Part shown: positions 14-23,241 of the stretch, in pieces
Layout of the letters: every line of letters starts with the position of its first letter
Numbering within the stretch: position 1 is the first letter of the stretch
Source of the DNA: Pararhodospirillum photometricum DSM 122
GTDB taxonomy: Bacteria > Pseudomonadota > Alphaproteobacteria > Rhodospirillales > Rhodospirillaceae
Direction of reading: 5' to 3'
Length of the DNA stretch: 26,238 bases
Assembly: GCF_000284415.1 (NCBI RefSeq)
Contig: NC_017059.1
Coordinates: forward strand, 1,628,544 to 1,654,781
Notes under the pieces: generated by a model
Told to the model about the DNA's origin: nothing
Database searches by the model: none
Seen by the model: the letters and a program-made list of their open reading frames with translations, nothing else
Position numbers and translations under genes: made by a program

Positions 14-46
14 AGGGGTCTGGGGAGGCCCCGCCTCCCCGGCCTT
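14..46 (+). repeat. Palindromic intergenic element, copy 1 (AGGGGTCT to GCCTT orientation)
   Basis: Hairpin arms TGGGGAGGC and GCCTCCCC flank a 3-nt loop, with AGGGGTC on the left and GGCCTTCC on the right. It lies upstream of the small membrane protein gene. Whatever precedes it is outside the window. Confidence 0.85.
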
Positions 47-76
47 CCCTTCCCTCTCCCAACAAGGACACCGCTC

Positions 77-317
77 ATGGCCTCTCCGGTTCCCCGGACT
101 CCCGGCCCCGCCTCGCCCTTGAGCGATACCGTGGCCAAGGTGCGCGACACCCTGGCGACCTTGGGGCAAATCCACGCCGACACCCAAAACCTATCGACCC
201 GCCTCACCCGACTGACGCGCTGGGTCTACATCCTGACCGCCCTGGTCAGCGTGGCCATTATCCTGATCCTCGTTTTTGCTGCTGGTGGTCCTGGTCGCCC
301 TGTTTGTGCGCTCGTGA
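77..317 (+). CDS. Small membrane protein, 79 aa once a homopolymer frameshift is repaired
   Basis: I do not recognise a family. The ATG at 77 follows an AAGGA about 10 nt upstream. The first 50 or so residues are polar with heptad-like spacing (DTVAKVRDTLATLGQIH, then TRLTRLTRW), suggesting a short coiled coil. A single hydrophobic segment starts at WVYILTALV. As sequenced, the frame runs through the T5 run at 273-277 into a low-complexity, proline- and cysteine-containing tail ending near 400. Removing one T gives GTT TTG CTG CTG GTG GTC and continues the hydrophobic helix as LVLLLVVLVALFVRS, with a stop at 315-317. The repaired protein would have a C-terminal membrane anchor of about 30 residues and a basic end, facing the cytoplasm if N-in. 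That the repair yields continuous membrane sequence supports a real gene; its function is unknown. Confidence 0.5.
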
Positions 318-374
318 CGAGCACTTACCCCCCAAGGCCCGAGGCTCTGCCATGCGGATTTCCCCGGCGCGCGG

Positions 375-403
375 TTTACAGCTTGATGACGGGTTGCTAA
401 GGT
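375..403 (+). promoter_or_regulatory. Weak sigma70-type promoter candidate for prs
   Basis: TTTACA (375-380) matches the -35 consensus at 5 of 6 positions and is followed after 17 nt by TAAGGT (398-403), a poor -10. The spacing is ideal and the site lies 86 nt before the prs ATG, but such matches occur by chance. Confidence 0.22.
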
Positions 404-488
404 CCGCGCCGACTGGACCGGGGAGGTCCCCCCGCCCTTTGCGCCGCCCCCCGGACACCTGCCCGCGCCGCCAACTGGGAATCCCGGA

Positions 489-1421
489 ATGAAAATCCTG
501 GCCTGCAACAGCAATCGCCCTCTGGCCGAGGCGATCGCCAGCTTTCTCAATCTTGAACTCACTCACGCCAGTGTCAAGCGATTCAGCGACATGGAAGTTT
601 GGGTGGAGATCCTCGAAAACGTGCGCGGCGAAGACGTCTTCGTCGTTCAGTCCACCAGCTACCCTGCCAACGACAATCTGATGGAACTGCTGGTCACCCT
701 CGACGCCCTCAAGCGCGGCTCGGCGCGGCGCGTCACGGCGGTGATCCCCTATTTTGGCTACGCCCGTCAGGACCGCAAGACCGGACCGCGCACCCCGATC
801 ACCGCCAAGCTGGTGGCCAACCTGATCACCAGCGCCGGCGCCAACCGCGTGGTGACGCTCGACCTGCACTCGGGCCAGATCCAGGGCTTTTTCGATATCC
901 CGCTCGACAACCTGTATGCCGCGCCGGTGTTCTCCAAGCACATCATCGAGCATTTCCGGGGCGAACGGCCCATGGTGGTCTCGCCCGACGTGGGCGGCGT
1001 GGTGCGCGCGCGCGACCTCGCCAAGCGCATTGATGCCGACCTCGCCATCATCGACAAGCGCCGCGAGCGCGCCGGCGTGTCCGAGGTGATGAACATCATC
1101 GGCGACGTGCGCGGCCGCGACTGTATCTTGGTCGATGACATCGTGGACTCGGCCGGCACCTTGTGCAACGCGGCGGTGGCGCTCAAGGCCTCGGGGGCCA
1201 ACTCGGTGGCGGCCTATGTCACCCATGGCGTGCTTTCGGGCGGCGCCGTGGCCCGCGTGGCGTCGTCGCCCCTCGATTCCCTGTGCATCACCGACAGCAT
1301 CCAGGCCACCGAGGCCATGCGTCTGGCGCGCAACATTCATCAGATCTCCATCGCGCCCCTGATGGCCGAGGCCATGCGCCGGGTCAGTCAGGAGGCGTCG
1401 GTGTCGAGCTTGTTCCTTTAA
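489..1421 (+). CDS. prs: Ribose-phosphate pyrophosphokinase (PRPP synthetase)
   Basis: Transfers pyrophosphate from ATP to ribose 5-phosphate, giving PRPP for purine, pyrimidine, histidine, tryptophan and NAD synthesis in the cytoplasm. The 310-residue product has the normal length of bacterial class I enzymes. It opens with [17 protein letters not shown]. The catalytic and ATP-loop region includes [11 protein letters not shown], the flexible-loop/ribose region has [16 protein letters not shown] and [15 protein letters not shown], and the PRPP-binding motif [10 protein letters not shown] lies at residues 215-224. No strong Shine-Dalgarno is visible before the ATG, but the conserved N-terminus begins exactly there. 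Palindromic element copy 2 follows the stop by 12 nt. purD lies downstream on the same strand, so two purine-route genes are neighbours, though the 108-nt gap with an element between them argues against tight coupling. Confidence 0.97.
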
Positions 1422-1433
1422 AGTAAAAAAAGC

Positions 1434-1464
1434 AGGCTGGGGAGGCGGGCCTCCCCAGACCCCT
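1434..1464 (-). repeat. Palindromic intergenic element, copy 2
   Basis: AGGCTGGGGAGGC, a 3-nt loop and GCCTCCCCAGACCCCT form a 9-bp perfect stem. It starts 13 nt after the prs stop, with an A-rich run (AAAAAAA) between the stop and the hairpin. On the minus strand this reads as a hairpin followed by T residues. Confidence 0.9.
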
Positions 1465-1529
1465 CCATTCCTTTGCGTGGTCGGCTTCTCGACCGTTAAG
1501 ACCCTCGGAAGATAAGGAAGTAGCCCACG

Positions 1530-2797
1530 ATGAAGGTCCTGGTCATTGGATCCGGCGGACGGGAACACGCACTGTGTTGGAAGCTTGCCCGCTCCCCGCT
1601 AGCTGACGAGATTTTGTGCGTGCCCGGCAATCCCGGTATCGCCCAGGTGGCCCGGTGCATTCCCGGATCGGTGACCGACATCGACGCCTTGGTGGCCATC
1701 GCCCTCGCCGAGGGGGTGGGTTGGTGGTCGTGGGGCCCGAGGCGCCTCTGGTTCTCGGGCTGGCCGATCGCCTGCGCGAGGAAGGGGTCCCGGTGTTTGG
1801 TCCCGGGGCGGCGGCCGCCGCCCTGGAGGGCTCCAAGGCCTTCATGAAGGATGTGCTAACCCGCGCCGGAGTGCCCACCGCGCGCTACGGCTCCTTTGAT
1901 ACGGTCGAGGCGGCGCGCGCCTTCATCCGTGCCTTCGACGGCGCCTTGGTGGTCAAGGCCGATGGCTTGGCCGCTGGCAAGGGCGTTATCCTGTGTCCCT
2001 CCGCCGCCGAGGCCCTGGCCGCGGTCGAGGACATCATGGTCGCACGGGTGTTCGGCGCCGCCGGCGACCGGGTGGTCATTGAGGAGTTTCTGGAAGGCGA
2101 GGAGGTCAGCTTCTTTGCCCTGTGTGACGGCTTGCGCGCCCTACCCCTGGTCGGCGCCCAGGACCACAAGGCGGTGGGCGACGGCGACACCGGCCCCAAC
2201 ACCGGCGGCATGGGCGCCTACTCCCCGGCCCCGGTCTTTACCGAGGCCCTGCGCGATCAGGTGATGAACGACATCATCGCCCCCACCTTGCGCACCCTGG
2301 TCGAGCTGGGCTTTCCCTATCACGGGGTGCTGTTCGCCGGCTTGATGATCACCCGCGAGGGGCCTAAGGTTCTGGAATACAACGTGCGCTTTGGCGATCC
2401 CGAGTGCCAGGTCCTCCTGGCCCGCTTGGAATCCGACCTCCTGCCCGTCTTGCTTGCCGCCGCCCAGGGGGAGTTGGGCGAGATCTCGTTGCGCTGGTCC
2501 ACCGACGCCGCCTTGGTCGTGGTCATGGCCGCCGAGGGGTATCCCGGCACGCCGCGCACCGGCACCGAGATCCGGGGCCTTGACCGGGCCGCCCAGCTTC
2601 CCGGGGTTGACGTTTTCCATGCCGGCACCAAACTCGATGCCGAGGGGCGCGTCGTCGCGGCCGGAGGACGGGTGCTGGGCATCACCGCACGGGGGCCCTC
2701 CCTCGCCGAGGCTCAGGCCCGCGCCTATGCCGGCGTTGATGCGGTGGACTGGCCGGAAGGGTTCTGTCGGCGGGACATCGGCTGGCGGGCTCTTTAA
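1530..2797 (+). CDS. purD: Phosphoribosylamine-glycine ligase (GAR synthetase), frame broken once
   Basis: ATP-grasp enzyme joining phosphoribosylamine to glycine in the second step of purine synthesis. The ATG at 1530 has AAGGAAG upstream. The N-terminus [19 protein letters not shown] is the family signature. The frame then breaks: translation from 1530 is good up to LAEGVG near 1720, and resumes in the +2 frame from 1721 with [15 protein letters not shown]. One base is missing in the G-rich stretch 1712-1720; adding a G restores an open frame of about 423 residues, normal for PurD. Downstream are the ATP-grasp signatures [12 protein letters not shown] and [24 protein letters not shown], and the metal-ligand stretch [10 protein letters not shown]. 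The C-terminal domain is complete. I take the break as a likely sequence error because conservation is intact on both sides; a real pseudogene would be surprising for a core gene. Confidence 0.93.
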
Positions 2798-2800
2798 AAA

Positions 2801-2830
2801 AAGCTGGGGAGGGACGGCCTCCCCAGGCCT
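2801..2830 (-). repeat. Palindromic intergenic element, copy 3 (variant)
   Basis: CTGGGGAGGGACGGCCTCCCCAGGCCT, an imperfect copy whose left arm reads GGGGAGG-GAC and whose right flank has GGCCT instead of GACCCCT. It begins 4 nt after the purD stop. Confidence 0.75.
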
Positions 2831-2867
2831 CTCGGGACGAAAGAGGGGCGGGCTCAGGAGATCCGTG

Positions 2868-3746
2868 GTGCCCTTTCTTTATGACATGCCGTTGTTCCGA
2901 CCGCCCTCGGAAGCCGAGTCGCTGATTTTTCAGGTCACCCTGGGCTGCGGCCATAACCAGTGTGCCTTTTGCTCCATGTACCGGAGCAAAACCTACACGG
3001 TGCGTTCCCTCGACGCGCTGGAGTGCGAGATCCGCACCGCCGCCATTGCTTGGCCCGACGCCCACCGGGTGTTCCTGGCCGATGGCGACGCCTTTCGCCT
3101 GCCGACCGACCACCTGTTGAAGATCCTTTCCTTTCTGCGAGACGCCTTCCCCAGTCTGGCCCGGGTGTCGTGCTATGCCACGCCCGGCGACATCCTGCGC
3201 AAGAGCGAAGACGAGCTGGCCGCCCTGCGCGCCGCCAAGCTGTCTTTGCTTTATGTCGGGCTGGAAAGCGGCGACCCGGAGACTGTGCGCCGCGCCGCCA
3301 AGGGTGCCTCACCAGAGGCCGCCGGCCGGGCGGTCAACCGGGCGCAGGCGGCGGGCCTCAAGGTCTCGGCCACCATCATCCTGGGGCTGGCCGGCCGGGT
3401 CCGGGCCCGGGAACACGCCTGGGCTACGGCGGTGATGATCAACAAGGCGCCGCCGGTTTATCTGTCGGCGCTGTGCCTTATGCTGACCCCGGAACGCGAA
3501 GGCCCGTTCCGGGCGCGCTTTGACAACACCTTCGAGCCGCAGGATGACGAGGGCTTGCTGGGGGAGTTGGAGCTGATGCTTGAGACCTTGAACCCGCCGC
3601 GCCCGGTTATCTTCCGTTCCAACCACGCATCGAATGCCCTGGCCCTGGCCGGGACTTTGCCCCGCGACCGCGACCGCCTTTTAGCCGAAGTGCGGGCGGC
3701 GCGAGCCGAGGGCGAGGTGCGGCCGGTGGTGAGCCGTCGGCTTTAA
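2868..3746 (+). CDS. Radical SAM domain protein of unknown specificity
   Basis: Predicted iron-sulfur enzyme that cleaves S-adenosylmethionine to a 5'-deoxyadenosyl radical. I chose the GTG at 2868 because AGGAG (2856-2860) ends 7 nt before it; GTG 2865 and ATG 2883 are alternatives. The product is 292 residues. The cluster ligands are C27, C32 and C35 in VTLGCGHNQCAFCSMY, a CX4CX2C spacing rather than the classical CX3CX2C. Later come the radical SAM barrel segments LADGDAFRLP (near residue 67), ARVSCYATPGDIL and LLYVGLESGDPETVR (SAM-binding-like GLESG), and ATIILGLAGR. No B12-binding or C-terminal SPASM cysteine domain is visible. The family often appears as an uncharacterised COG1032-like protein. 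Its neighbours (purD, EF-G-like) do not reveal a substrate. Confidence 0.85.
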   Translation: MPFLYDMPLFRPPSEAESLIFQVTLGCGHNQCAFCSMYRSKTYTVRSLDALECEIRTAAIAWPDAHRVFLADGDAFRLPTDHLLKILSFLRDAFPSLARVSCYATPGDILRKSEDELAALRAAKLSLLYVGLESGDPETVRRAAKGASPEAAGRAVNRAQAAGLKVSATIILGLAGRVRAREHAWATAVMINKAPPVYLSALCLMLTPEREGPFRARFDNTFEPQDDEGLLGELELMLETLNPPRPVIFRSNHASNALALAGTLPRDRDRLLAEVRAARAEGEVRPVVSRRL

Positions 3747-3748
3747 AG

Positions 3749-3781
3749 AAGGCTGGGGAGGCGCGGCCTCCCCAGACCCCT
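3749..3781 (-). repeat. Palindromic intergenic element, copy 4
   Basis: AAGGCTGGGGAGGC, a 2-nt loop, GCCTCCCCAGACCCCT. It begins 3 nt after the radical SAM stop and faces copy 5 in inverted orientation 42 nt away. Confidence 0.9.
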
Positions 3782-3823
3782 CGATCAAATGGGCCCTTCG
3801 CGCGAAGCATGCCCCATGAGCGG

Positions 3824-3855
3824 AGGGGTCTGGGGAGGCGAGCCTCCCCAGCCTT
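3824..3855 (+). repeat. Palindromic intergenic element, copy 5
   Basis: AGGGGTCTGGGGAGGC, GA loop, GCCTCCCCAGCCTT. It ends 4 nt from the stop of the minus-strand EF-G-like gene and is the inverted partner of copy 4 in the convergent intergenic region. Confidence 0.9.
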
Positions 3856-3858: not shown

Positions 3859-5874
3859 TTACCCAGCCAAAAACGCCTTACGCGCCTCGACCACCTCCTC
3901 GGCCGCCCGTCCCGTCACCTCCTGCAAGTGGTCGAACGTCCACTGGAAGGTGCCAACGCCCATGGTGGCCGAGCGGATCTCGACGATCAGGTCGTGCATT
4001 TCCGCCTGGGGCAGATAGCCCTGCACCACGTCCCAGCCGGCCCAGCCTTCCTTGGGCATGAACCCAAGGATCTGGCCGCGCCGGGTGCTGAGGGCACGCT
4101 GGGCGCGGCTGGTCGCCTCGGTCGGCACGCTGATCTCAACGGTCAGGATCGGCTCCAACAACACGGGATCGCCCTTGGGCATGCCCTCGCGCATCGCCAA
4201 CTGAGCGGCGGAGCGGAATGCCTGCTCGGAGCTGTCCACCACGTGATACGAGCCATCGGTCAGGGTGACAACGATGTCCACCACCGGGAAGCCCAGCGGC
4301 CCGCGCGCCAGATACTCGGTCACGCCATGCTCGACGGCCGGGATGTACTGCTTGGGCACCACGCCGCCGGTGATGGTGTCGGTGAACTCGAAGCCGGCGC
4401 CACGCGGCCGGGGCGCGATGGTCAGGTGCACATCGCCAAACTGCCCGTGCCCGCCCGACTGCCGCTTGAACCGGCCCTGCTGGCTCACCGCCGCGCGAAT
4501 GGTCTCCTTGTAGGGCACCTGGGGCCGCGAGACATCGACCTCGACGTGGAACTGGCGGGCCAGCCGGGCCAGGGCCACCTGGAGGTGGATGTCGCCTTGC
4601 CCCCAAAGCAGAAGCTCGCCGGTCTCGGTGTTCATTTCCAGGCGCAAGGAGGGATCCTCCTCGCACAGCTTGCCCAGCGCGGCGGTCAGTTTCACGTCAT
4701 CGCCTTGCTTGCGGGTGCGCAGGGCGAGGGCGAACAAGGAGGTGAGGGTCGGGGGTGCGTCGGCGGCGCTCTCGCCGTTGAGGAGCGCGCCGGTGGCCTG
4801 GTTCTCCAAACGGCCGATGCCGACGATAGCTCCCGCCGGCACCTCGGAGATCTTGGTCTGGGCCCCGGCCGGGAAGGCATAAAGGCCTGTCACCTTATCG
4901 CCGTTCAGGCTGGCGCCGTCCTTGAGGCCCGAGGTCCACACCCGAGCCAGGGACAGCTTGCCCACGTGCTCGGCGTGGTGGGTTTTGAAGATCTGGACCA
5001 CGGGTCCCGGGCCTTCCAGGCCGAGGCGGGCGCGGGTTTCGTCGAGGGTCGGGGCCTCGTGACGCAAGGCCTTGAGCAAGCGGCGCACACCGCTGTCTTG
5101 CAAGGCGCTGCCGAAGAACACCGGCACCAACAGATCCTCGCTCAGATCCTTGGCCAGGGCCTGATAAACTTCTTCTTTGGGCGGTGTGGTATCGGCCAGC
5201 AATTCTTCCAGCAAGGCGTCGTCGAAGTCGGCCAGATGCTCCAGGAGAGCTTGGCGCTCCTCGCTCTTGCGATCTTGCAGGTCCTCGGGGATCTGGATCA
5301 AAGCGCTGGGCTGGCCCGCCTGATAGCGATAGGCGCGCTCGCTGACCAGATCAACGTAGCCCACCACCTTGTCGCCCTCGCGGATGGGGATTTCGCGGGC
5401 AATCAGCGGACGCGCCGACACCGCTTGCAAGGCTTCGATCATGGCGCGCACCGAAGCGTCGGCGCTTTCCATTTTATTGATGAAAATCAGGTGGGGAATG
5501 CCTCGACGATCCAGGAAGTTGAGCAACGGCGTGAGCATCACGGCCCGCGCCGGGTCGGGCTCGCAGACCACCACGACCACATCGGCCACCGCCAGGGCGT
5601 TGTAGGTGTCTTGGAGGAACTCCACCGATCCCGGACAATCCAGGAAGGTCCAAGGACCGCCCAGATAGCTGGTCTGGGCCACATTGACTTCCACCGTCAT
5701 TTCGCGCTCGCGCGCCTCGGGGGAGGCATCGCCAACGGTCGAGTGCTCGGGGACCGTGCCCTTGCGGTGGATCGCCTCGGTGGCCAGCAAGAGGGATTCC
5801 ATCAGGGTCGTTTTGCCGCTGGCATACGGTCCCACAATGGCGGCCACACGGGGCGCGGACGCTCTGTCGGGCAT
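3859..5874 (-). CDS. Elongation factor G-like translational GTPase with degenerate G motifs
   Basis: The ATG at 5874 (AGGAG 8 nt upstream) is preferred to a GTG at 5883 that overlaps that Shine-Dalgarno; the product is 671 residues, slightly shorter than canonical EF-G (about 700). Domain order is EF-G-like: G domain, an OB-like domain II, domain III (DIHLQVALARLARQF), domain IV with GGHGQFGDVHLTI, and domain V (GFMPKEG to a long C-terminal helix). The P-loop is GPYASGKT (15-22) instead of GHIDAGKT. The DxPGH motif reads DCPGS (79-83), so the catalytic histidine is serine, and NKxD reads NKME (133-136). The family is a known EF-G-like paralogue with no settled role, distinct from the fusA beside rpsL/rpsG. 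It is not a ribosome-protection protein by any motif I can identify. Whether it hydrolyses GTP normally is an open question. Confidence 0.9.
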   Translation of the reverse strand: MPDRASAPRVAAIVGPYASGKTTLMESLLLATEAIHRKGTVPEHSTVGDASPEAREREMTVEVNVAQTSYLGGPWTFLDCPGSVEFLQDTYNALAVADVVVVVCEPDPARAVMLTPLLNFLDRRGIPHLIFINKMESADASVRAMIEALQAVSARPLIAREIPIREGDKVVGYVDLVSERAYRYQAGQPSALIQIPEDLQDRKSEERQALLEHLADFDDALLEELLADTTPPKEEVYQALAKDLSEDLLVPVFFGSALQDSGVRRLLKALRHEAPTLDETRARLGLEGPGPVVQIFKTHHAEHVGKLSLARVWTSGLKDGASLNGDKVTGLYAFPAGAQTKISEVPAGAIVGIGRLENQATGALLNGESAADAPPTLTSLFALALRTRKQGDDVKLTAALGKLCEEDPSLRLEMNTETGELLLWGQGDIHLQVALARLARQFHVEVDVSRPQVPYKETIRAAVSQQGRFKRQSGGHGQFGDVHLTIAPRPRGAGFEFTDTITGGVVPKQYIPAVEHGVTEYLARGPLGFPVVDIVVTLTDGSYHVVDSSEQAFRSAAQLAMREGMPKGDPVLLEPILTVEISVPTEATSRAQRALSTRRGQILGFMPKEGWAGWDVVQGYLPQAEMHDLIVEIRSATMGVGTFQWTFDHLQEVTGRAAEEVVEARKAFLAG

Positions 5875-7401: not shown

Positions 7402-7446
7402 TCAAGGCCTGCAACGAGACCATCGAGAGAGAGACCCCAGGATCGG

Positions 7447-7478
7447 AGGGGTCTGGGGAGGCCCGCCTCCCCAGCCTT
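7447..7478 (+). repeat. Palindromic intergenic element, copy 6
   Basis: AGGGGTCTGGGGAGGC, CC loop, GCCTCCCCAGCCTT followed by CTCTTTTT. It lies just beyond the stop of the minus-strand trkH gene (7496). Confidence 0.9.
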
Positions 7479-9437: not shown

Positions 9438-11935
9438 ATGGCCCTGCATTCCCTGCGCTCCGTCCTCCTGGCTTCGGCGGTCACGCTGACGGTGGCGTCG
9501 GGACTGGCCATCAGTGCCTTTGCCTTTAACACGTCACGACGGACGGTCGAACAAGTATCGGCCGCACTCCGCCACGAAATCGCCCGTCAGGTCACAGACC
9601 ATTTGCGGTTTTCCCTGGAAGGCGCACGCACCTCCTTGCGTGAGGTGGCCTTTGCTTTCGAAACCGGCCTGTTGTCCCTGGACAATCCCTCCCAGGTGGA
9701 ACGGGCCTTCCTGCTCAAGACGTTGTACAACCCGGTTATCACCGCCGTTAAGCTGGGAACCCGCGACGGCGGCATCGTAGCCGGCCTCCACACCGGCGCG
9801 GGCACCGGCCCCGGCACCGCGGGCTGGCTGATCCGAACCGAAGGTCTCATCGCCGGCCCGCTGATCCGCACGCCGGTGGATGCTAAGGGACAAGCCCTGG
9901 GACCGCCGCAACTCTATCCCGGCTACGACACCCGCGAGCGCTCCTGGTACCAAGACGGTGCCAAGGACCGGGATTTCGTGTGCGGCTCCATCTACGCCGT
10001 CTACGACACCCAGGACCTGTCCCAGCCGTGCAGCCTCGCCATTACCGGACCCCAGGGGGTCTTTCTCGGGGTGGCGGGCGCTGATCTCCAGTTGTCCGAG
10101 ATCAGCGCCTACCTAGCCCGGCTGCACACCACCACCCCAGGCCTGACCTTCATCATCGATCGCCAGGGGAACTTGGTGGCCACGTCCACCGGCGACGAGA
10201 TCGTGCACCCCGGGAGCCCCCAGCCCCCCCGCCGCTTGGCCGCCCGCGAGAGCAAGAATCCCCTGATTGCCGCCAGCGCCCACGCTTTTGAGACTCAGTT
10301 CCCCCCCGGGAGGTGGAGGTCGGAGGCCAACGCTACGCCCTGGAAATCGCCCCTGTCGATGAGCCGGCCCCGCTGGGCTGGCAGGTCATCAACATCGTCC
10401 CCGCGACGATTTACCACGCCCCCTTGGAAGAGGGGAACCGGGAGACCCTGTGGCTGATTTTGGTCTCGGTCGCCCTGATGGCCGGGATCATGGCCCTGGT
10501 GGCCCGGCACATCCTGCGCCCCCTGGACACCCTGACCTGCTCGGTCCAGGCGGTGGCGCGGGGAGATTATTCCCGCCGCCTCGACACAACCCGCGCCGAC
10601 GAAATCGGCGATCTGGCCCGCGCCGTCGATGCCCTGACCCAGCAATTGGACTCGTCGCGCGCCACCTTGGAACGGCGCCTGACCGACATCAGTGCCGCCG
10701 AGGCCCGCTTCGAGACACTGTTTGAGAGCGCCGAAATCGCCATCTGGAACGAAGACTTTACCGACTTGGCCGGGCGCCTGGAAATCTTGCGCCATCAAGG
10801 CGTGGTCGATCTGCGCGCCCACCTGCGCCAGACCCCCGAATTGGTCTGGGAGTTGCTGGCCTGCGTGCGCGTGCGCCACGTCAACCGCGCTTCGCTGCGC
10901 CTGTTCGGCGCGCGCGACGAAGCCGAGATCCTGTCGGGCCTCGCCCGGATCGTCACCCCGGAAACCCATGGGGTGCTCATCAACAAGTTTTGCGCGGTCT
11001 GGGCCCGGGAGAGCGTCTTCCAAAGCGAAACCGTACTGCGCACCCTGGGGGGCGAGCGCCGGGTGGTGCTGCTGTCGTTTCCTGTGCCGCAAACCGCCGA
11101 GGGCTTGGCCGCCGTGCCGGTAAGCTTCCTGGACGTCACCCCCATTCGCAAGGCCGAGGACCGCTTGCGGCGCAACACCCTCGAACTGGAGCGCTCCAAC
11201 TCCGACCTGGAGTCCTTTGCCTACGCCTCGGCTCACGACCTGCGCGAGCCGTTGCGCAACATCACCTCCTACACCACCTTGCTCTCGCGGCGACTGGCCG
11301 ACCGCCTGGAGCCGGAGGAGCAGGAGTTCTTCCACTATGTGCACCAAGGCGCGCTGCGCATGGACGACTTGGTGTGCGACCTTCTGGAGTTCTCGCGCAT
11401 CGGCCGCCCGGGCCGCCCGCTAGAGCCGGTCGATCTCGCCGACGTCACCGAGCGGCTGCTGCGCGCGCCGATCGAGGCCGGCGCCGAAACCGAAGGCGCG
11501 GCCTCCTTGCCCGTTGTGCTGGGCATCCCGGCCGACCTGGAAAAGCTCTACACCAACCTGCTGGGCAACGCCCTCAAATACCGCTCGCCCGACCGGCCCT
11601 TGCGCCTCACCTTCGGCGCGGTGCCCGAGGGATCGTTCTGGCGTTTGTGGCTGCGGGACAACGGCATCGGCTTGCAACCCGGCCAGGGCTACGAGGAGCG
11701 CATCTTCCGCCTGTTCCAGCGCCTGCACGGCCGCGCCGAGTACGGCGGCGGTACCGGTATCGGCCTCGCCATCTGCCGCAAGGTGGTGGAGCATCATGGC
11801 GGGCGGATGTGGGTGGAGTCGCCGGGGCTGGACCAGGGGACGACCTTCTTTTTCACCCTGCCCGCACCGCCGCCACGGGTCGGACCGCCGGGCAGTGTTT
11901 TCGGGCGGATGGAGTTGTTGCCCAAGGATCCCTGA
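9438..11935 (+). CDS. Membrane sensor histidine kinase (Cache-HAMP-HisKA-HATPase), frame broken once
   Basis: Predicted two-component sensor. From the ATG at 9438 there is an N-terminal membrane segment (residues about 5-28), then a periplasmic sensor of roughly 290 residues with the Cache-type motif YDTRERSWYQDGA. The frame is good to about residue 288 (TQFPP), breaks at the C7 run 10301-10307 and resumes one frame over as PREVEVGGQRYALEI; adding one C restores it. A second membrane segment (LWLILVSVALMAGIMAL, 10450-10500) leads to a HAMP linker (RPLDTLT to DEIGDLARAVDAL), a weak PAS-like region and a phytochrome-kinase-style H box SAHDLREPLRN, with His codon at 11234-11236. The ATPase domain has an N box NLLGNALKYRS, RDNGIG, and GGGTGIGLAICRKVVEHHGG. 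No response regulator lies beside it, so its partner and signal are unknown. Confidence 0.88.
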
Positions 11936-11948
11936 GCACGGGAAGGGA

Positions 11949-11977
11949 AGGCTGGGGAGACAGGGCCTCCCCAGACC
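11949..11977 (-). repeat. Palindromic intergenic element, copy 7 (degenerate)
   Basis: AGGCTGGGGAGACAGGGCCTCCCCAGACC. The left arm reads GGGGAGACA, so the stem is imperfect and the distal CCCT is lost. It lies 14 nt after the kinase stop and 7 nt from the Anbu gene stop on the other strand. Confidence 0.75.
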
Positions 11978-11983
11978 GCACGT

Positions 11984-12763: not shown

Positions 12764-12838
12764 CCGAGTTCTCCCTTTCTGGTGCCTCAAGTTTCCCCCG
12801 GACGGCCCAGGCTTTCAAGCGGATTCCCCTAGGAAGGG

Positions 12839-12871
12839 AGGGGTCTGGGGAGGCCCCGCCTCCCCAGCCTT
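12839..12871 (+). repeat. Palindromic intergenic element, copy 8
   Basis: AGGGGTCTGGGGAGGC, CCC-type loop, GCCTCCCCAGCCTT followed by GCTTTCCTTTTT. Unlike most copies it lies between two divergent genes (the Anbu peptidase and bioF), before the BioR boxes. Confidence 0.88.
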
Positions 12872-12922: not shown

Positions 12923-12985
12923 AAATTCCCGTGCAATCCCCTAAAACCCCCGTATGATGCCACCACCATAGATCATGCCTCAATA

Positions 12986-12995
12986 TTATCTATTA
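12986..12995 (+). promoter_or_regulatory. BioR-type operator, box 2
   Basis: TTATCTATTA matches TTATCTATAA, the other orientation of the BioR consensus, at 9 of 10 positions, 14 nt before the bioF start codon. A third, weaker ATAGAT core lies at 12968-12973. Confidence 0.65.
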
Positions 12996-13009
12996 TCAGG
13001 CCCTCACCG

Positions 13010-14156
13010 ATGCCCCACCCTCCCCCCCGCCTCGCCCGCTACCAAGCCGATCTCGACCAACTGGCGCGCCGGGGCCGGGGCCGGGCCCTGCTGCCGGCCC
13101 AGGGCCTCGACTTCTCGTCCAACGATTACCTCGCCCTGGCCAACGACCCGGCCCTGGCCCAAGCCGCCCACGACGCTTTGGCGCGCGGCGTGCCGGTTGG
13201 GGCCGGTGGCTCGCGCCTGCTGCGCGGCAACCACCCGGAACACCAAGCCCTGGAGGCCGAAGCCGCCCGCTTTTTTTGGCGCCGAGCGGGTGCTCTATTT
13301 CAACAGCGGCTACACCGCCAATCTGGCGGTCCTCTCGACCTTGCCGCGACGCGGCGACTTGATCGTCTACGATACCCTGATCCACGCCAGCGCCCACGCC
13401 GGCATCAAGGCCGGCCGCGCCCACGCCCTGGCGGTGCCCCACAACGACGCCAACGCCATCGCCACCACCTTGGAACGCTGGCGGCAGGCGGGCGGACGCG
13501 GGGTGCCGTGGATTGTCGTGGAAAGCCTCTACTCCATGGACGGCGACCCGGCGCCGCTCGCCGACCTTGCCCTCATCGCCCAGCGCCACGACGCCTTTTT
13601 GGTGATCGACGAGGCCCATGCGACCGGCGTGCTGGGGCCCCAAGGACGCGGCCTCGCCGCCGCTCTGGAAGGCCAGGACAACGTCATCGTCGTGCACACC
13701 TGCGGCAAGGCCCTCGGCACGACCGGCGCGCTGGTGGGGGCCCCGGCTGTTTTGTGCGACACCCTGGTGGCCCAGGCCCGACCCTTTTTGTATGCCACCG
13801 CCCCCTCGCCCCTTCAGGCCGCCTTGGTGCGTGCCGCCTTGGCGCTGGTGGCCCAGGACGACGGGCGACGCGCCCGGCTGGCCGATATGGTGGCCCAGGC
13901 CAACCAGCAGCTTGGCGCCAAAACCGGCCGGCCGGGCAGCGGCTCGCACATCCTCCCGGTGATCGTGGGCGACAACGCCCGCGCCGTCGCTCTCGCCAAC
14001 CGCCTCCAGGCGCGGGGCTTCGACGTGCGGGCCATCCGCCCGCCCACGGTGCCGCTGGGCACGGCGCGCTTGCGCCTGAGCCTCACCCTCCACGCCGATG
14101 AGGCCGCTGTGGCGGCCCTGACCACGGCCCTGGCCGAGGAGCTTGCATGTCCGTGA
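13010..14156 (+). CDS. bioF: 8-amino-7-oxononanoate synthase, frame broken once
   Basis: PLP enzyme condensing a pimeloyl thioester with L-alanine, the first step of biotin ring assembly. The ATG at 13010 opens MPHPPPRLARYQADLDQLA, followed by DFSSNDYLALAND and VGAGGSRLLRGNHPEHQALE, all typical of BioF. At the T7 run 13271-13277 the frame breaks; removing one T gives AARFFGAERVLYFNSGYTANLAVLS and the rest is open to 14156. Further landmarks are VVESLYSMDGDPAPL, DEAHATGVLGPQGRG and the PLP lysine (codon 13707-13709) in HTCGKALGTTGA. The repaired length is about 381 residues, normal for the family. An alternative open frame from 12975 has a meaningless N-terminus and is an effect of the frameshift. 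It is the first gene of a biotin operon and overlaps bioD by 10 nt. Confidence 0.94.
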
Positions 14157-14797
14157 TCCTGCCCCGCCGCCTTGTGGTCAGCGGCACCGATACCGGGATC
14201 GGCAAAACCGTGGTGGCCGCCGCCCTGACCCAAGCCCTGAACGCCGCCTATTGGAAGCCGGTGCAAGCCGGCCTTGACGGCGAGACCGACAGCGCCACCG
14301 TTGCCCGGCTGGCCGGCGTGGGGCCGGCGCAGATTATCCCCGAGGCGTGGCGCCTCACCACCCCGGCCTCGCCCCACCGGGCCGCCGCCCTTGATGGCGT
14401 GACGATCGATCTGGTCGGCTTGGTGCCGCCAGCGGCCCCGTCCCTGGTCATTGAGGGGGCCGGGGGCGTGATGACTCCCCTCACCCGCTGCGACACCTTC
14501 GCCGACCTTTTCGCGCTGTGGCGGATCCCGGTCGTCCTGGTGGCCCGCACCGCGCTGGGCACCCTCAACCATACTTTGCTGGCCCTGGAGGCCCTGGGTC
14601 ATCGGGACGTGCCGGTGGTCGGGGTGGCGTTTGTCGGCGATCCCCAGCCCGATACCGAGGCCCTGATCCCGGAGATGACCGGCGTTCCCCGCCTGGGCCG
14701 CCTGCCGGTTCTGCCCTCCCTGACCCCGGACACCCTACGCACGGCGTTCCTCACCCATTTCCCGGACGTTCACCCAGCCCCTGCGGAGACCCCGTGA
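14147..14797 (+). CDS. bioD: Dethiobiotin synthetase
   Basis: Carboxylates 7,8-diaminononanoate and closes the ureido ring using ATP and CO2. The 216-residue protein has the P-loop GTDTGIGKT at residues 13-21, the substrate-binding YWKPVQAG near 35-42, and the [10 protein letters not shown] segment, all classic BioD motifs. It starts inside the end of bioF (10-nt overlap) and its TGA overlaps the bioA ATG (sequence TGATG), so translational coupling is likely. Confidence 0.97.
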
Positions 14798-16071
14798 TGC
14801 CCGCCTCCCCGTCGCCGGTCTGGCGCCCCTTTACCCAGCACCACCTCGACCCGGCCCCGCCTCACATCGTGCGCACCCAAGGCGCCTGGCTGGAGGATGC
14901 CCAAGGCCGGACTTATCTCGACGCCATCTCTTCGTGGTGGGTGATCACCCACGGGCATCGCCACCCGGTGATCATGGCCGCCATCGAACAGGCGGCGCAC
15001 ACCCTGGACCAAGTGATTTTCGCCGAGTTCACCCACGCGCCGGCCGAAGCCCTGGCCCGGGGCCTGATCGAGCGGGCGCCGCCCGGCCTGACGCGCGTTT
15101 TCTATTCCGACAGCGGCTCCACGGCGGTGGAGGTCGGGATCAAGATGGCGTTCGGTTTCTTCCACAACCAGGGCATCCCTCGATCGCGGCTGGTGGTGAT
15201 GGAGCACGGCTATCACGGCGATACCATCGGCACCATGTCGGCGGGAGCGCGCGGCGTGTTCAACGCCCCCTATGCGCCCTTGCTGTTCGAGGTCGCCACG
15301 CTGCCGTTTCCCGAGCCCGGCCACGAACAGGCCACCTTGGATGCCTTCGCCGCCCAGTGCCAGACCGGCGAGGTCGCCGCGCTGCTGATCGAGCCCCTGG
15401 TTCTCGGAGCCGGCGGCATGAAAATGTATCCGGCCTGGGTACTGGGCGAGCTGAAGCGCATCGCCGAGCACGCCGGGGTCTTGCTCATCGCCGACGAGGT
15501 TATGACCGGCTGGGGCCGCACCGGCACCCTGTTTGCCTGCACCCAGGCCGCCCTCACCCCCGACATCTTGTGCCTGTCCAAGGGCCTGACCGGCGGCGCC
15601 TTGCCGCTGGCCGCCACCTTGTGCACCGAGCCGATCTTTGCCGCCCATCTGGCCGAGGACCGGCGCAAGACCTTTTTCCACTCCAGTTCCTATACCGCCA
15701 ACCCGCTGGCCTGCGCCGCCGGGCTGGCCAATCTCCAGGTCTGGGACACCGAGCCGGTCCAAGCGCGCCTCGACACCCTGGCCACCCACCAGCGCGAGCG
15801 GCTGGCCCGCTTTGCCCACGACCCCCGTTTTGTCAACGTGCGCCAGTGCGGCACCCTCACCGCCTTGGACGTCCGGGTCTTCACCCCGGGCTATCTTTCC
15901 GACATCGGCCCACGCCTGCGCCGCTTTTTCCGCGAGCGCGGCGTGATCATCCGACCGCTCGGCAACGTCATCTATCTGATGCCCCCCTACTGCGTGACGG
16001 GCAGCGAACTGGATCTGGCCTACGAGGCCATCGACGAAGCCGTGGCCCGCATCGCCGGGGGGACCCCATGA
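14797..16071 (+). CDS. bioA: Adenosylmethionine-8-amino-7-oxononanoate aminotransferase
   Basis: PLP class III aminotransferase converting 8-amino-7-oxononanoate to 7,8-diaminononanoate, typically with SAM as amino donor. The 424-residue product has the BioA N-terminus [10 protein letters not shown], the substrate-pocket [13 protein letters not shown] (45-57), the PLP region [14 protein letters not shown] (104-117), [14 protein letters not shown], the [11 protein letters not shown] motif (233-243) and the PLP lysine K262 in CLSKGLTGG. The two tryptophans at 47-48 and the SAM-type pocket argue against the lysine-using BioK variant, but I cannot exclude it. The ATG overlaps the bioD stop, and its own TGA overlaps the next ATG. 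Confidence 0.97.
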
Positions 16072-17057
16072 CTCCAGGCCTCGCCAGCCGCCTCGCCGGA
16101 GTCGGCCACTTTGTCCCAGAACAGCGCATTGCCAACGCCGTGCTGGAAGAGCGCCTGGGCCTGGAGCCCGGGTGGATCGAACGGCGCACCGGCATCCAGG
16201 CCCGGCGCTGGGCCGCCCCCGACCAGAGCCTCAGCGACCTCGCCCTCCCGGCCGGCCAGCATGCCCTGACCGCCGCCGGGATCGACCCCGACGACGTGGG
16301 GCTGGTCTTGCTGGCCACCTCGACTCCCGACCACCTACTGCCGCCCACCGCGCCTCTGGTCGCCCACCGCCTGGGACTGCGCCGCACCGGGGCCATCGAC
16401 CTGACCGGCGCCTGCTCCGGCTTTCTCTACGCCCTCACCCTGGCCGATGGCTTTGTGCGCACCCAGGGCCGGGCGGTGCTGGTCATTGCCGCCAACCTCC
16501 TCAGCCGACGCATGAATCCCCTGGAACGGGCCAGCGCCATCGTCTTTGCCGACGCCGCCGGCGCCGTGGTCCTCACCCCCGATGGCCCGCCCGGCACCGG
16601 CTTGGTGGGGGTCGATCTTGATGCCGATGGCCGCCACTACGACCTGATCACCATCCCGGCCGGCGGCAGCAAGCAGCCCTTCCACCCCGACCTGGATCCC
16701 CGCGACGTGCTGATGACCCTGCGCGATGGCCAAGCGGTGTTCGCCCACGCGGTGCGTATGATGACCCACTGCTCGCGCCGCGCCCTGGCCCAGGCCGGCG
16801 AAAGCCCCGCGACCCTCGATCGCTTCCTGCCCCACCAAGCCAACGCCCGCCTCTTTGATGCGGTCGGCGAGCAGTTGGGCCTCGACCCCCGGCGCACGGC
16901 GCGCAGCATCGTCGAGTACGGCAACGCCTCGGCCGCCACCATTCCCCTGTCGCTGTCCCTCTCCCACCAGGAGAGGCCGCTGCACCCGGGGGAGCGCCTG
17001 CTGCTGTGTGCCGCTGGGGCCGGCATGATGGGGGGGGCCGTGGTGTGGCGCGTGTAG
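16068..17057 (+). CDS. bioZ: KAS III-like 3-ketoacyl synthase, probable BioZ
   Basis: A 329-residue FabH-fold enzyme with the Cys-His-Asn triad visible as C116 ([11 protein letters not shown]), H256 (LPHQAN) and N286 (YGNASAA). It overlaps bioA by 4 nt (ATGA) as the last gene of the bioFDA operon. In alphaproteobacteria the KAS III paralogue in this place is BioZ, which starts pimeloyl-ACP synthesis by condensing glutaryl-CoA with malonyl-ACP and so bypasses BioC/BioH. Position and coupling make that role far more likely than housekeeping FabH, whose gene normally sits with plsX. The sequence alone does not prove the acyl substrate. Palindromic element copy 9 follows the stop. Confidence 0.9.
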
Positions 17058-17065: not shown

Positions 17066-17097
17066 AAGGCTGGGGAGGCGGGCCTCCCCAGACCCCT
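17066..17097 (-). repeat. Palindromic intergenic element, copy 9
   Basis: AAGGCTGGGGAGGC, GG loop, GCCTCCCCAGACCCCT, starting 9 nt after the bioZ stop. The sequence beyond it (CGATTCCTGGGGCCGCGCCTC) resembles the sequence after copy 10, so the repeat unit may be longer than the hairpin. Confidence 0.9.
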
Positions 17098-17186
17098 CGA
17101 TTCCTGGGGCCGCGCCTCCCTAGCCATCCCCTGGACCAAGCGGTATAAGGGAAAAGTCTCCCTGTCTCAGCCGAGAGGATCCTGCG

Positions 17187-18033: not shown

Positions 18034-18065
18034 AAGGCTGGGGAGGCTTGCCTCCCCAGACCCCT
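18034..18065 (-). repeat. Palindromic intergenic element, copy 10
   Basis: AAGGCTGGGGAGGC, TT loop, GCCTCCCCAGACCCCT, 4 nt after the usp stop. It forms an inverted pair with copy 11, 43 nt away, in the convergent usp/acoR gap. Confidence 0.9.
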
Positions 18066-18108
18066 CCATTCCTGGGGCCCGGCCTCGCTCGTAGCGCCAA
18101 AATCAACG

Positions 18109-18140
18109 AGGGGTCTGGGGAGGCAAGCCTCCCCAGCCTT
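18109..18140 (+). repeat. Palindromic intergenic element, copy 11
   Basis: AGGGGTCTGGGGAGGC, AA loop, GCCTCCCCAGCCTT, ending 5 nt from the acoR stop on the minus strand. Inverted partner of copy 10. Confidence 0.9.
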
Positions 18141-20032: not shown

Positions 20033-20098
20033 GGCTGTGTCCTCCCTTGGGCGCCCTGCACACGAGCGGCCGCCTCTTCTTTTATCCCTCAAGCCCCG

Positions 20099-20133
20099 AG
20101 GGGTCTGGGGAGGCGAGCCTCCCCGGCCTTTTT
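20099..20133 (+). repeat. Palindromic intergenic element, copy 12
   Basis: AGGGGTCTGGGGAGGC, GA loop, GCCTCCCCGGCCTTTTT. It lies between the divergent acoR and acoD genes, upstream of the sigma54 promoter. It has the best T run of the family and looks like an intrinsic terminator in the plus direction. Confidence 0.9.
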
Positions 20134-20161
20134 CACGTTATTTTTGCGGCCCTTTAAAGGC

Positions 20162-20329: not shown

Positions 20330-20402
20330 GTGTTCCAGGGGCGACCGCCTGGGCAAGACGCCAAAAGCCTAAAGGCCAAAAAACCAAAGGGAGGAAGACG
20401 TT

Positions 20403-21923
20403 ATGCTGTATGCCGGACCCGGAAGCGAAACGGCCCCCGTTTCCTTCAAGCCGCGCTACGACAATTTCATCGGGGGACGCTGGTGTCCGCCGGTGGAGGG
20501 CGCCACCTTCGACACCGTGACCCCGATCACCGGCGCGGTCTATACCCAGGCCGCCCGCTCGACGGCCGCCGATATCGAGCTGGCCCTGGATGCCGCTCAC
20601 GCCGCCGCCGACGCCTGGGGCCATGTCAGCGTCGCCGAACGCGCCTTGATCCTCAACCGCATCGCCGACCGCATGGAAGCCAACCTGGAAAAGCTGGCCT
20701 ATGCCGAAACGGTCGATAACGGCAAGCCGATCCGCGAGACCCTGGCCGCCGACATTCCGCTGGCCATCGACCACTTCCGCTATTTCGCCGCGTGTATCCG
20801 GGCGCAAGAGGGCACCTTGGCGCAGATCGACGCCAACACGGTGGCCTATCACTTCCACGAGCCGCTGGGCGTGGTGGGGCAGATCATCCCCTGGAACTTT
20901 CCGATTCTCATGGCCGCTTGGAAGCTGGCCCCGGCCCTGGCCGCCGGCAACTGCGTGGTGCTCAAGCCGGCCGAACAGACCCCGATCAGCATCTTGGTGT
21001 TCATGGAACTGATCGCCGACCTGCTGCCGCCCGGGGTGATCAACATCGTCAATGGCTTTGGCTTGGAAGCCGGCAAGCCGCTCGCCTGCTCCAACCGCAT
21101 CGCCAAGATCGCCTTCACCGGCGAAACCAACACCGGCCGCCTGATCATGGGCTACGCCAGCCAAAACCTGATCCCGGTCACGCTGGAACTGGGCGGTAAG
21201 TCGCCCAACGTGTTTTTTGCCGACGTGGCCGCCGAGGATGACAGCTACCTGGACAAGGCCATTGAGGGCTTCGTGATGTTCGCCCTCAACCAGGGCGAGG
21301 TGTGCACCTGTCCGTCACGCGCCCTGATCCAAGACACGCTCTACGACCGCTTCATGGAGCGCGCCCTGGCCCGCGTCGCCGCCATTCGCCAGGGCAGCCC
21401 GCTCGACACCGAGACCATGCTGGGCGCCCAGGCCTCCGGCGAGCAGATGGAAAAGATCCTGAGCTACATCGACATCGGCCGCAATGAAGGGGCCGAGGTC
21501 CTGGCCGGCGGTGGCCGCGCCCATCTCGGGGACACCCTGGAAGGCGGCTATTACATCCAGCCCACGGTGTTCAAGGGCGACAACCGCATGCGCATCTTCC
21601 AGGAGGAGATCTTCGGCCCCGTCGTCGCGGTGACCACCTTCAAGAACGAGGACGAGGCGCTCCACCTCGCCAACGACACCCTCTACGGCCTGGGCTCGGG
21701 CGTGTGGACCCGCGACGCCAACCGCGCCTATCGCTTCGGCCGGGGGATCAAGGCCGGGCGTGTGTGGACCAACTGTTACCACCTGTACCCCGCCCACGCG
21801 GCCTTCGGCGGCTACAAGCAATCGGGCATCGGCCGCGAGACCCATCACATGATGCTCGACCATTACCAGCAGACCAAGAACATCTTGGTGAGCTATGCGC
21901 CGGGCGCTTTGGGCTTCTTCTAG
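20403..21923 (+). CDS. acoD: NAD-dependent acetaldehyde dehydrogenase (AcoD/ExaC type)
   Basis: Oxidises acetaldehyde to acetate in the cytoplasm. The ATG at 20403 follows GGGAGGAAG. The 506-residue length equals that I recall for Ralstonia AcoD, and long stretches agree with it, including [32 protein letters not shown] and the C-terminal YAPGALGFF. Catalytic residues are visible as E262 in ELGGKSPN (262-269) and C301 in [11 protein letters not shown], with N165 in PWNF. A cofactor-fold glycine lies in FTGETNTGR (238-246). It is driven by a likely sigma54 promoter beside acoR and followed by adhB, so it should complete ethanol-to-acetate oxidation. A general aliphatic aldehyde role is also possible. 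Confidence 0.94.
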
Positions 21924-21940
21924 CTCGGCGAGAAGAGGGG

Positions 21941-21974
21941 AAGGCTGGGGGAGGCGCGGCCTCCCCAGGCCCCT
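21941..21974 (-). repeat. Palindromic intergenic element, copy 13
   Basis: AAGGCTGGGGGAGGC, GC-type loop, GCCTCCCCAGGCCCCT, with one extra G in the left arm. It lies 17 nt after the acoD stop, between acoD and adhB. Confidence 0.88.
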
Positions 21975-21981
21975 CGGTTCA

Positions 21982-22007
21982 GGGGGAGAGTGTCTTCCCC
22001 GGTTTTT
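21982..22007 (+). terminator. Weak terminator or attenuator between acoD and adhB
   Basis: GGGGGA (21982-21987) pairs with TTCCCC (21995-22000) around a 7-nt loop, followed by GGTTTTTT. The 6-bp stem with one G-T pair is weak, so partial read-through into adhB would be expected. Confidence 0.45.
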
Positions 22008-22049
22008 TCAAAAAAAGTGCGCACATTATGCGCCTTAGGAGGATCCGTC

Positions 22050-23201
22050 ATGGCTGAGACCGCTTTTTTCATTCCTTCCCTCAACCTCATGGGGGCCGGC
22101 TGCCTGCAAGGGGCGATCGCCCAGGTGCGTCGCCACGGTTTCGCCCGCGCCTTGATCGTCACCGATACCGTGCTCAACAGTCTTGGCATGGCGAGCCAGG
22201 TAGCCAAGCTGCTCGCTGACCACGACATCAGGAGCTGTATCTTCGATGGCGCCCAGCCCAACCCCACGGTCGGCAATGTCGAGGCCGGACTGGCCCTGTT
22301 GCAGGCCGAGCATTGCGATTGCGTGATTTCGCTGGGCGGCGGCTCGTCGCACGACTGCGCCAAGGGCATCGCCCTGACCGCCACCAACGGCGGCTCGATC
22401 CGCGATTACGAAGGGGTGGACAAGTCCAACCGGGCCCAGTTGCCCCTCATCGCCATCAACACCACGGCCGGCACGGCCAGCGAGATGACCCGTTTTTGCA
22501 TCATCACTGACGAGTTGCGTCAGGTGAAGATGGCCATCGTCGATCGCCACGTCACGCCCTTGCTGTCGGTCAACGACCCCGAGCTGATGCTGGGCAAGCC
22601 GCCGTTGCTCACCGCCGCCACCGGCATGGATGCCCTGACCCACGCCGTCGAGGCCTATGTGTCCGTCGCCGCAACGCTGATCACCGACGCCTGCGCCCTC
22701 AAGGCCGTGTCGATCATTTCCAACACCTTGCGCACCGCCGTCGCCGAAGGGAGCAATCTGGCGGCGCGCGAGGCCATGGCCTACGCCGGCTTCCTAGCCG
22801 GCATGGCGTTCAACAATGCGTCGCTGGGGTATGTCCACGCCATGGCCCACCAGCTCGGCGGGTTCTATGACCTGCCGCATGGGGTGTGCAACGCGGTGTT
22901 GCTGCCCCACGTCGAGGCCTTCAACGCCGATGTCGCCGCCTCCCGTCTCAAGGACGTGGCCCACGCCATGGGGGTGGACACGGTGGGCATGACGGATGCC
23001 GAGGGCGCCCAGGCCTGCCTCGCCGCCATCCGCCGCCTGTCGGCCGATATCGGCATCCCGGGCGGGCTGACCGAGTTGGGGGTCAAGGAAACGGACATTC
23101 CGGTTCTCGCCGCCAATGCTCTCAAGGATGCCTGTGGCTTGACCAATCCGCGTCGGGCTGATCAGGCGGAAATCGAAGCGATCTTCCGCGCGGCGGCGTA
23201 A
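22050..23201 (+). CDS. adhB: Iron-containing alcohol dehydrogenase, Zymomonas AdhB-like
   Basis: NAD-linked group III dehydrogenase interconverting ethanol and acetaldehyde. The ATG at 22050 has a strong AGGAGG 7 nt upstream; a longer frame from 21990 is not conserved. The 383-residue length equals Zymomonas mobilis ADH II as I remember it, and long segments agree with it: [44 protein letters not shown] and [25 protein letters not shown]. The metal ligands of the family are D194, H198, H263 and H277. The NAD-binding GGGS lies at 97-100. It follows acoD on the same strand, so together they could oxidise ethanol to acetate; in reverse, AdhB could make ethanol in fermentation. Confidence 0.95.
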
Positions 23202-23208
23202 AAAAAGC

Positions 23209-23241
23209 AAGGCTGGGGAGGCGCGGCCTCCCCAGACCCCT
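23209..23241 (-). repeat. Palindromic intergenic element, copy 14
   Basis: AAGGCTGGGGAGGC, GC-type loop, GCCTCCCCAGACCCCT. It starts 7 nt after the adhB stop, with an A6 run between, and ends 8 nt from the convergent enoyl-CoA hydratase stop. Confidence 0.9.

Follow-up and report, generated by a model that had tools for sequence, protein, structure and literature searches.

A stretch of 26,238 nucleotides from Pararhodospirillum photometricum DSM 122 (positions 1,628,544-1,654,781 of a genome, here G000, that is a single contig of 3,876,289 bases; the whole stretch is called the window below) contains 14 copies of a short palindromic element with a conserved 5' tag, GAGGGGTC. On balance, we favor the reading that this element is a repeat resembling repetitive extragenic palindromes (REPs) or REPINs, probably mobile, that its G-rich strand is capable of forming a triplex, that it is spread by an agent other than a Y1/RAYT transposase, and that it is kept behind stop codons. 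According to this reading, the elements would be copies of a short non-coding repeat whose G-rich strand, when single-stranded during replication or transcription or as a transposition intermediate, would fold into a hairpin. The 5' tag GAGGGG would fold back over a 3-nt TYY linker and occupy the major groove of the GGGGAG arm in antiparallel orientation, where about six triads (G.GC, A.AT or T.AT) would give a class I purine-motif intrastrand triplex. The repeat would spread singly or in pairs, the pairs being inverted with their tags inward and frequently with a spacer of 55-59 nt, through an enzyme that is not a Y1/RAYT transposase of G000. It would remain mostly just past stop codons, since an insertion is least costly at that place, copies in promoter-sized gaps having been purged. 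The hairpin with its TTyyyTTTT tail would resemble an intrinsic terminator in one orientation, as a by-product. The element thus has the look of a spreading repeat, of a class that has been little described, and not that of a purpose-built gene-end signal.

The 14 palindromes had been listed in the original prediction, and all of them were found in the window. A 20-mer with a 2-base loop matched the window seven times at up to 3 mismatches, compared with 0.15 matches expected from shuffles, and the remaining seven copies had a 3-base loop or an altered arm. The whole G000 genome contained 705 exact cores, whereas the reversed control gave none. Flanks and gene positions were analyzed in 81 stretches (80 of 20 kb and the window; 1,626,238 bases, 42% of the genome), over which the G+C content was 64.7%. 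These sampled stretches held 476 cores, of which 55 were excluded for weak or ambiguous flanks, leaving 421 tagged copies; cores less than 30 nt from a stretch end had been excluded earlier. Extrapolated from this 42% of the genome, G000 carries about 1,000 tagged copies. The exact core with its tag (TGGGGAGGC, loop, GCCTCCCCAGACCCC) was matched 452 times in G000 and never in the other 384 genomes sampled from the class, a sample that includes just one other member of the taxonomic family of G000; G029 and G039, both outside that sample, carry it as well.

The information in single copies spans from about 19 nt 5' of the core to about 14 nt 3' of it (n = 241). A copy is thus about 54 nt long and reads CCCCAGGAAygGAGGGGTC-TGGGGAGGC-nn(n)-GCCTCCCCA-GCCTTyyyTTTT on the G-rich strand. 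The hairpin and flanks described previously are part of it, but the true element is longer than had been stated. The arms are nearly constant and the loops varied, as had been noted, with loop sizes of mainly 2 or 3 nt. The four C/G bases of the tag were conserved in 95-96% of 339 copies, and the unpaired GGGG of the tag was conserved almost as well as the arms.

Copies often lie close together as inverted pairs. Among 63 pairs of neighbors less than 150 nt apart, 46 had their tags inward, 13 outward and 4 in the same direction (p = 2e-15 for inward), and the spacer measured 55-59 nt in 23 of the 46 tag-inward pairs. Inward partners had identical loops in 25 of 46 cases (5.3 expected, p = 2e-12), across seven loop types; outward partners did so in 11 of 13 cases (1.5 expected), ten of them with the loop CGC. 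The matched loops suggest that both loops of a pair change together, via joint movement or via fold-back correction. Full flanks were found in 68% of the paired copies versus 45% of the singles. Two inverted palindromes thus act as a unit, in the manner of a REPIN or BIME, but 297 of the 421 copies have no near partner. REPINs and BIMEs associated with RAYT transposases (see PMC3116915 and PMC2817692, and the passages considered of PMC3733652) are likewise extragenic tagged palindromes, present in hundreds of copies, with inverted pairs as units; the present element differs in its GGGGTYY tag and in that seven of the eight carrier genomes searched, including G000, gave no Y1 match.

The sequence GAGGGG-TCT-GGGGAG is a mirror repeat, and an antiparallel purine-motif triplex over the hairpin is therefore possible. 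The rule for such triads is a tag G for a stem G:C and a tag A or T for a stem A:T. We scored it in 368 copies from 12 genomes (260 copies from G000) that start with GGGGTYYGGGG and have a perfect stem of at least 6. At position 5, 273 of 290 copies with a stem A had a tag A or T, and 32 of 37 with a stem G had a tag G; the corresponding fractions for position 6 were 21/25 and 280/295. Summed over these two positions, the tag base opposite a stem A was A in 254 copies, T in 40, C in 16 and G in 5. A T opposite A is permitted in the purine motif. The mirror register fit at 0.73 in G000 and at 0.80 in the other genomes, versus at most 0.49 and 0.39, respectively, when the register was shifted by 1-2 nt. 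Grouping the copies into 33 genome-by-stem clusters gave 44 positions, of which 37 agreed with the triads, while 20,000 permutations gave a mean of 18.9 and a maximum of 31; this set includes some of the sequences that suggested the rule (G000, G029, G013 and one G014 copy). In the clusters chosen with their flanking bases unseen, 12 of 15 positions fit by hand count. Within G000 alone, the tag base for position 6 was A in 6 of 8 copies with a stem A:T but in 26 of 392 with a stem G:C (p = 4e-6; the copies may share ancestry).

A class I motif has been defined as third-strand, purine and pyrimidine stretches in this order on one strand, with a stem of at least 6 and loops of 1-6 nt, in the passages considered of Holder et al. 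2015 (PMC4666352), a catalogue of intrastrand triplex motifs that also includes a study of the E. coli BoxC/TM-ECO repeat. Our consensus, GAGGGG-TCT-GGGGAG-(GCnnGC)-CTCCCC, has this order and stem, and its base triads fit on the clusters, less well in six further genomes, and fail at position 7; a hairpin loop of 3 nt brings the second loop to 7 nt, slightly above the limit of 6. Judged from sequence, the G-rich strand could fold as an intrastrand triplex. Purine-motif triplexes are stated to be impossible in RNA (PMC4666352, in the same passages), so the use of T as the second choice opposite A suggests that the G-rich strand would act as DNA.

The same passages name Rhodospirillum photometricum DSM 122 among the genomes with more than 500 triplex motifs composed almost purely of G and C, 77% of such motifs having 7-nt stems and possibly being due to chance. 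The count for DSM 122 probably includes the present repeat, though the repeat is not described in the passages considered. The original prediction had named no known family; this holds in that no Rfam match and no description in a repeat study was found, and is weakened by the motif count, which probably covers the repeat. There were no Rfam matches at the gathering threshold in the window, which rules out a known RNA family as the identity of the window copies. Papers containing the strings of the element included no bacterial repeat study among the matches listed, and a literature search whose coverage leaves out most subscription journals returned no report of this family among the matches listed. 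The BoxC repeat (PIT element, TM-ECO) is the closest likeness in PMC4666352: as far as the passages considered describe it, it is a short G/C-rich intergenic repeat able to form a hairpin and a third strand over a 3-nt linker, it has no strand bias, it sometimes occurs as close inverted pairs, and it is unevenly distributed between close relatives. However, TM-ECO is of class II (with the third strand on the 3' side of the purine arm), follows the pattern CCCTCNCCC..GGGNGAGGG..GGGNGAGGG, and numbers 23 in E. coli K-12 MG1655, where it lies upstream of genes more frequently than downstream, whereas the present element is of class I (third strand 5'), has other arms and another sequence, with the tag 5' of the purine arm, numbers about 1,000 and lies near stop codons. 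Covariation of stem and third strand, seen in the present element, is absent for TM-ECO from the passages considered.

Several observations weigh against the triplex or against movement of the copies. The triad rule breaks at position 7, where a stem G was accompanied by a tag G in just 92 of 287 of the 368-copy set. When distinct sequences were counted once over positions 5-8, 18 of 29 cases of a stem A had a tag A or T, and 33 of 66 cases of a stem G had a tag G (difference p = 4e-4). Six further genomes fit less well, with 17 of 26 positions (position 5, 13/16, p = 0.03; position 6, 4/10, p = 0.006). The weak fit at position 6 arose because several G-rich stems have a tag C or A, with clear misfits in the G-rich stems of G512 and G526. 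These six are among 15 genomes and among the matches listed, and a full hairpin was not required. Their 18 clusters, 16 of them counted, were typed manually, each defined by its 6-nt stem and represented by its most frequent tag base, and several consist of one copy; a tied cluster (GGGGAG of G537) was entered with the fitting base, and the GGGGGG cluster of G494 includes two misfitting copies. A fold of the typed consensus as RNA paired the tag with the pyrimidine tail instead, and such pairing could have caused part of the conservation of the tag in G000, though G039 and G013 have a G-rich tail. The plain DNA fold of a single copy was not better than that of shuffles (z -0.8 and -1.3 for the two strands). 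The outer flanks of pair partners, unlike their loops, were no more alike than random flanks. Target-site duplications and insertion edges could not be read against G029, where the median protein identity was 75%. Finally, 16 sampled genes lying between tag-inward copies included no transposase recognizable by eye from the first 60 residues, without a family scan or a search for other transposase families.

We determined the position of the copies relative to genes called with a purpose-written, codon-usage-based caller. The 421 copies were distributed over tandem gaps (211), convergent gaps (119), divergent gaps (62), the interior of called genes (17) and stretch ends (12). Copies in tandem gaps had a median position at 16% of the distance from the stop to the next start (Kolmogorov-Smirnov p = 8e-30). 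Convergent gaps were occupied in 103 of 193 cases, tandem gaps of at least 60 nt in 177 of 474, and divergent gaps in 45 of 195; none of the 52 divergent gaps shorter than 150 nt was occupied. Placement at gene ends, as proposed originally from the window, is thus borne out by closeness to stop codons in the sampled genome. The proposed orientation did not survive. In the window, the GCCTT/AAGGC side indeed lies 2-17 nt from a stop in 11 of the 14 copies, in line with the earlier count of 11 with a nearby AAGGC flank. Those 11 are made up of two tag-inward pairs (3749/3824 and 18034/18109), two convergent-gap singles (11949 and 23209), which have stop codons on both sides, and five tandem singles, which agree by chance. 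Across the sampled stretches, the tag was 5' in the sense strand in 106 of 211 tandem-gap copies (p = 1), and in 78 of 156 single ones. This even orientation rules out an oriented gene-end signal under selection. The cumulative GC skew over the sampled stretches, tried for replication-strand bias, gave no clean replichores.

An intrinsic terminator likewise consists of a G+C-rich hairpin followed by a T-rich tract, as one orientation of the element does; it differs in that the element is equally frequent in the orientation without the T-rich tract. Singles whose sense strand carries the tag on the 5' side were scored as terminator-like (hairpin and T tract over the element) in 43 of 72 tandem and 17 of 34 convergent cases, while singles in the opposite orientation were so scored in 10 of 76 and 3 of 34. 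Element-free gene ends scored as terminator-like anywhere in 43 of 297 (tandem) and 11 of 102 (convergent). No significant dependence of tail T content on orientation was seen (p = 0.06 and 0.74). The earlier idea of a terminator cassette thus gains only partial support: one orientation scores as a terminator, and the other, which is equally common, mostly does not. Because both orientations are equally frequent, termination looks like a by-product of the element.

We compared G000 with G029, the sole genome of the same genus examined, which contains 20 exact cores. Their sampled parts share 86 conserved gene junctions. Of these, 16 were occupied in G000, and none of those 16 was occupied in G029; the difference is a gain in G000 or a loss in G029. 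The proposal that the element is REP-like or a remnant of a miniature inverted-repeat transposable element (MITE) gains from this absence, as it does from the high copy number, the intergenic placement and the loop-matched inverted pairs. A MITE would have terminal inverted repeats with a target-site duplication; an inverted pair is present here, and the duplication could not be read against the diverged G029. The original prediction had also advised looking for a RAYT-type transposase. At E 0.001, a search for Y1_Tnp (PF01797, RAYT/IS200 type) found no match in G000 and matched 5 of 14 control genomes. Among the eight carrier genomes searched, G000, G029, G039, G013, G027, G002 and G126 had no match, and G014 had four. 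The lack of a match in G000 rules out dependence on a resident RAYT.

These data bear unequally on the other explanations. That the element is a gene-end cassette, a terminator or mRNA 3'-end stabilizer maintained by selection at each gene, would account for the strong placement just past stops and in convergent gaps and for the excess of terminator-like scores over element-free gene ends in the tag-5'-sense singles. We consider it improbable, given that half of the tandem singles face the other way although that orientation seldom scores, that tail T content does not vary significantly with orientation, and that the element is missing from G029 at all 16 compared junctions. An origin as a MITE or insertion-sequence end is unlikely as well, if somewhat less so. 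In that case, the inverted pair would be an entire non-autonomous transposon, a conventional transposase would move it, and the singles would be half remnants, which agrees with the preferred spacer and matched loops of the tag-inward pairs and with four tag-inward pairs in G013 that combine two stem types, start 50 bp apart and have extended conserved flanks. However, partnerless copies exceed paired ones (297 vs. 124 of the 421) and have clear edges of their own, outward pairs are also present (13), the genes between inward copies showed no transposase by eye (conventional families were not searched for), and the target duplications are not readable against G029.

The least probable explanation, which we regard as very doubtful, is that the element is a GTAG- or CGTC-tagged REP family whose RAYT was later lost. 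GTAG and CGTC are REP classes whose overall layout is the same, according to the passages considered of PMC3733652: short tagged palindromes, in high copy, intergenic and with head-to-head dimers. Like the present element, the CGTC REPs described there are mostly alphaproteobacterial, form head-to-head dimers and have no dedicated transposase known, but they have a CGTC tag, an 8-9 bp stem, a 4-5 nt loop and a CCA tail, whereas ours has the GAGGGGTC tag, a 10 bp stem (CTGGGGAGGC), a 2-3 nt loop and a GCCTT tail. The consensus has neither tag, no GTAG stands at the foot of the palindrome, and a Y1_Tnp match was found in just one of the eight searched genomes, G014. A greater, though still limited, chance attaches to the possibility that no triplex is involved and that the tag is conserved for another reason, either because a protein recognizes it or because it pairs with another part of the element (the pyrimidine tail, or the 3' arm in a shifted register). 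The consensus RNA fold and the incomplete triad fit, more so in the further genomes, argue for it, and the sequence shows that GAGG could pair with CCTC in the 3' arm. Nevertheless, the tail varies between genera while the tag stays, and T, the second commonest base opposite a stem A, on inspection fits no shifted Watson-Crick pairing but fits a purine-motif triad. Proteins rarely read mirror symmetry, which counts against a protein site.

Outside the genus, the GGGGTYY tag followed by GGGG...CCCC recurs with different inner stems in several Pseudomonadota. We counted matches to this pattern on both strands; these are not copies, as one copy may count repeatedly, mainly on the reverse strand. 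The matches (reversed control in brackets) were 206 (3) in G013, 498 (8) in G039, 21 (0) in G027, 10 (2) in G002, and 140 (0) in G126, which belongs to another family; G014, with 38 (35), showed no clear enrichment. G000 itself had 639 matches and a control of 300, which is high because the reversed pattern fits the left end of the repeat itself, CCCC...GGGGTCTGGGG. In the class sample, 72 of 385 genomes had any match, with few each at most beyond the high-count genomes, and in a phylum sample 61 of 249 did, with high counts in G512 (844; control 0), G537 (773; 16), G498 (644; 13), G526 (632; 3) and several more. The best account is that the element belongs to a broad, little-described GGGGTYY-tagged group. 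We tentatively suggest, as a bolder proposal that may well fail, that GGGGTYY hairpins are a third large prokaryotic REP superfamily beside GTAG and CGTC, in which the tag would be a triplex third strand and not a Watson-Crick guide, the inner stem would be free to vary by species whereas the tag and the foot of the stem would not change, and the enzyme that recognizes the three-stranded fold of single-stranded DNA and copies it by the hundreds in scattered Pseudomonadota would be unrelated to RAYT.

The tagged hairpins are arranged differently in other genomes. At the G013 loci L176-L195, GGGGTYY hairpins lie in longer conserved units whose halves differ (a GGGGCC type and a GGGGGAATT type), with the tags inward. 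At the G039 loci L197-L215, the tagged hairpin is mostly followed by GCGGGG... and a second hairpin (e.g. AAAGGGGCGGCGCCCCTTT), giving tandem hairpins. The sequence GGGGGCACCTGGCAACAGAAGCCCC occurs in several match-poor Alphaproteobacteria (e.g. G329, G395, G435 and G147) and is perhaps a conserved RNA gene and not a repeat.

The copies in the window are given here with the strand that bears the 5' tag and with coordinates based on the cores. Four of them form the two tag-inward pairs. Element 4 (3749..3782, minus strand, core 3755-3773) is the left half and element 5 (3823..3855, plus, core 3832-3849) the right half of a pair that folds into one long hairpin (-50.0 kcal/mol, z -8.4), its loops being unlike (CGC and GA). 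Element 10 (18034..18066, minus, core 18040-18057) and element 11 (18108..18140, plus, core 18117-18134) are the left and right halves of the other, which also folds into one long hairpin (-58.3 kcal/mol, z -11.8) and has the loop AA in both halves (tag orientation). Single copies in convergent gaps are element 7 (11948..11981, minus, core 11954-11972) and element 14 (23209..23242, minus, core 23215-23233), and divergent gaps contain element 8 (12838..12871, plus, core 12847-12865) and element 12 (20098..20130, plus, core 20107-20124). The tail lies 11 nt past the stop of a PRPP synthetase-type gene in element 2 (1433..1465, minus, core 1439-1456), 2 nt past that of a GARS-type gene in element 3 (2800..2833, minus, degenerate core 2806-2824), and 17 nt from that of a TrkH-type gene in element 6 (7446..7478, plus, core 7455-7472). 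It lies 8 nt past a stop in element 9 (17066..17098, minus, core 17072-17089) and 17 nt past a stop in element 13 (21942..21975, minus, core 21948-21966). Element 1 is at 13..46 (plus, core 22-40).

A Pfam family was found for 19 of the 20 window proteins submitted, and one of the matched genes (9438-10457) had been missed by the gene caller. Four adjacent genes at 12975-17057 on the plus strand match the aminotransferase I/II, AAA_26, class III aminotransferase and KAS III families; from the family names alone, they may be a biotin-type operon, the AAA_26 gene being presumably of the dethiobiotin synthetase type. An elongation factor G-like protein (GTPase, EFG_III, EFG_IV and EFG_C domains) is encoded at 3859-5874 on the minus strand and adjoins a radical SAM gene.

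The presence of tagged palindromes in high copy number without a Y1 transposase raises the question of what moves them. As far as the passages considered show, the case for natural bacterial intrastrand DNA triplexes has so far been built from sequence patterns and from tests of a single motif of E. coli. If true, covariation of the triads over many different stems and across genera would provide an evolutionary sign that the fold is of importance to cells, and this sign is testable at scale.

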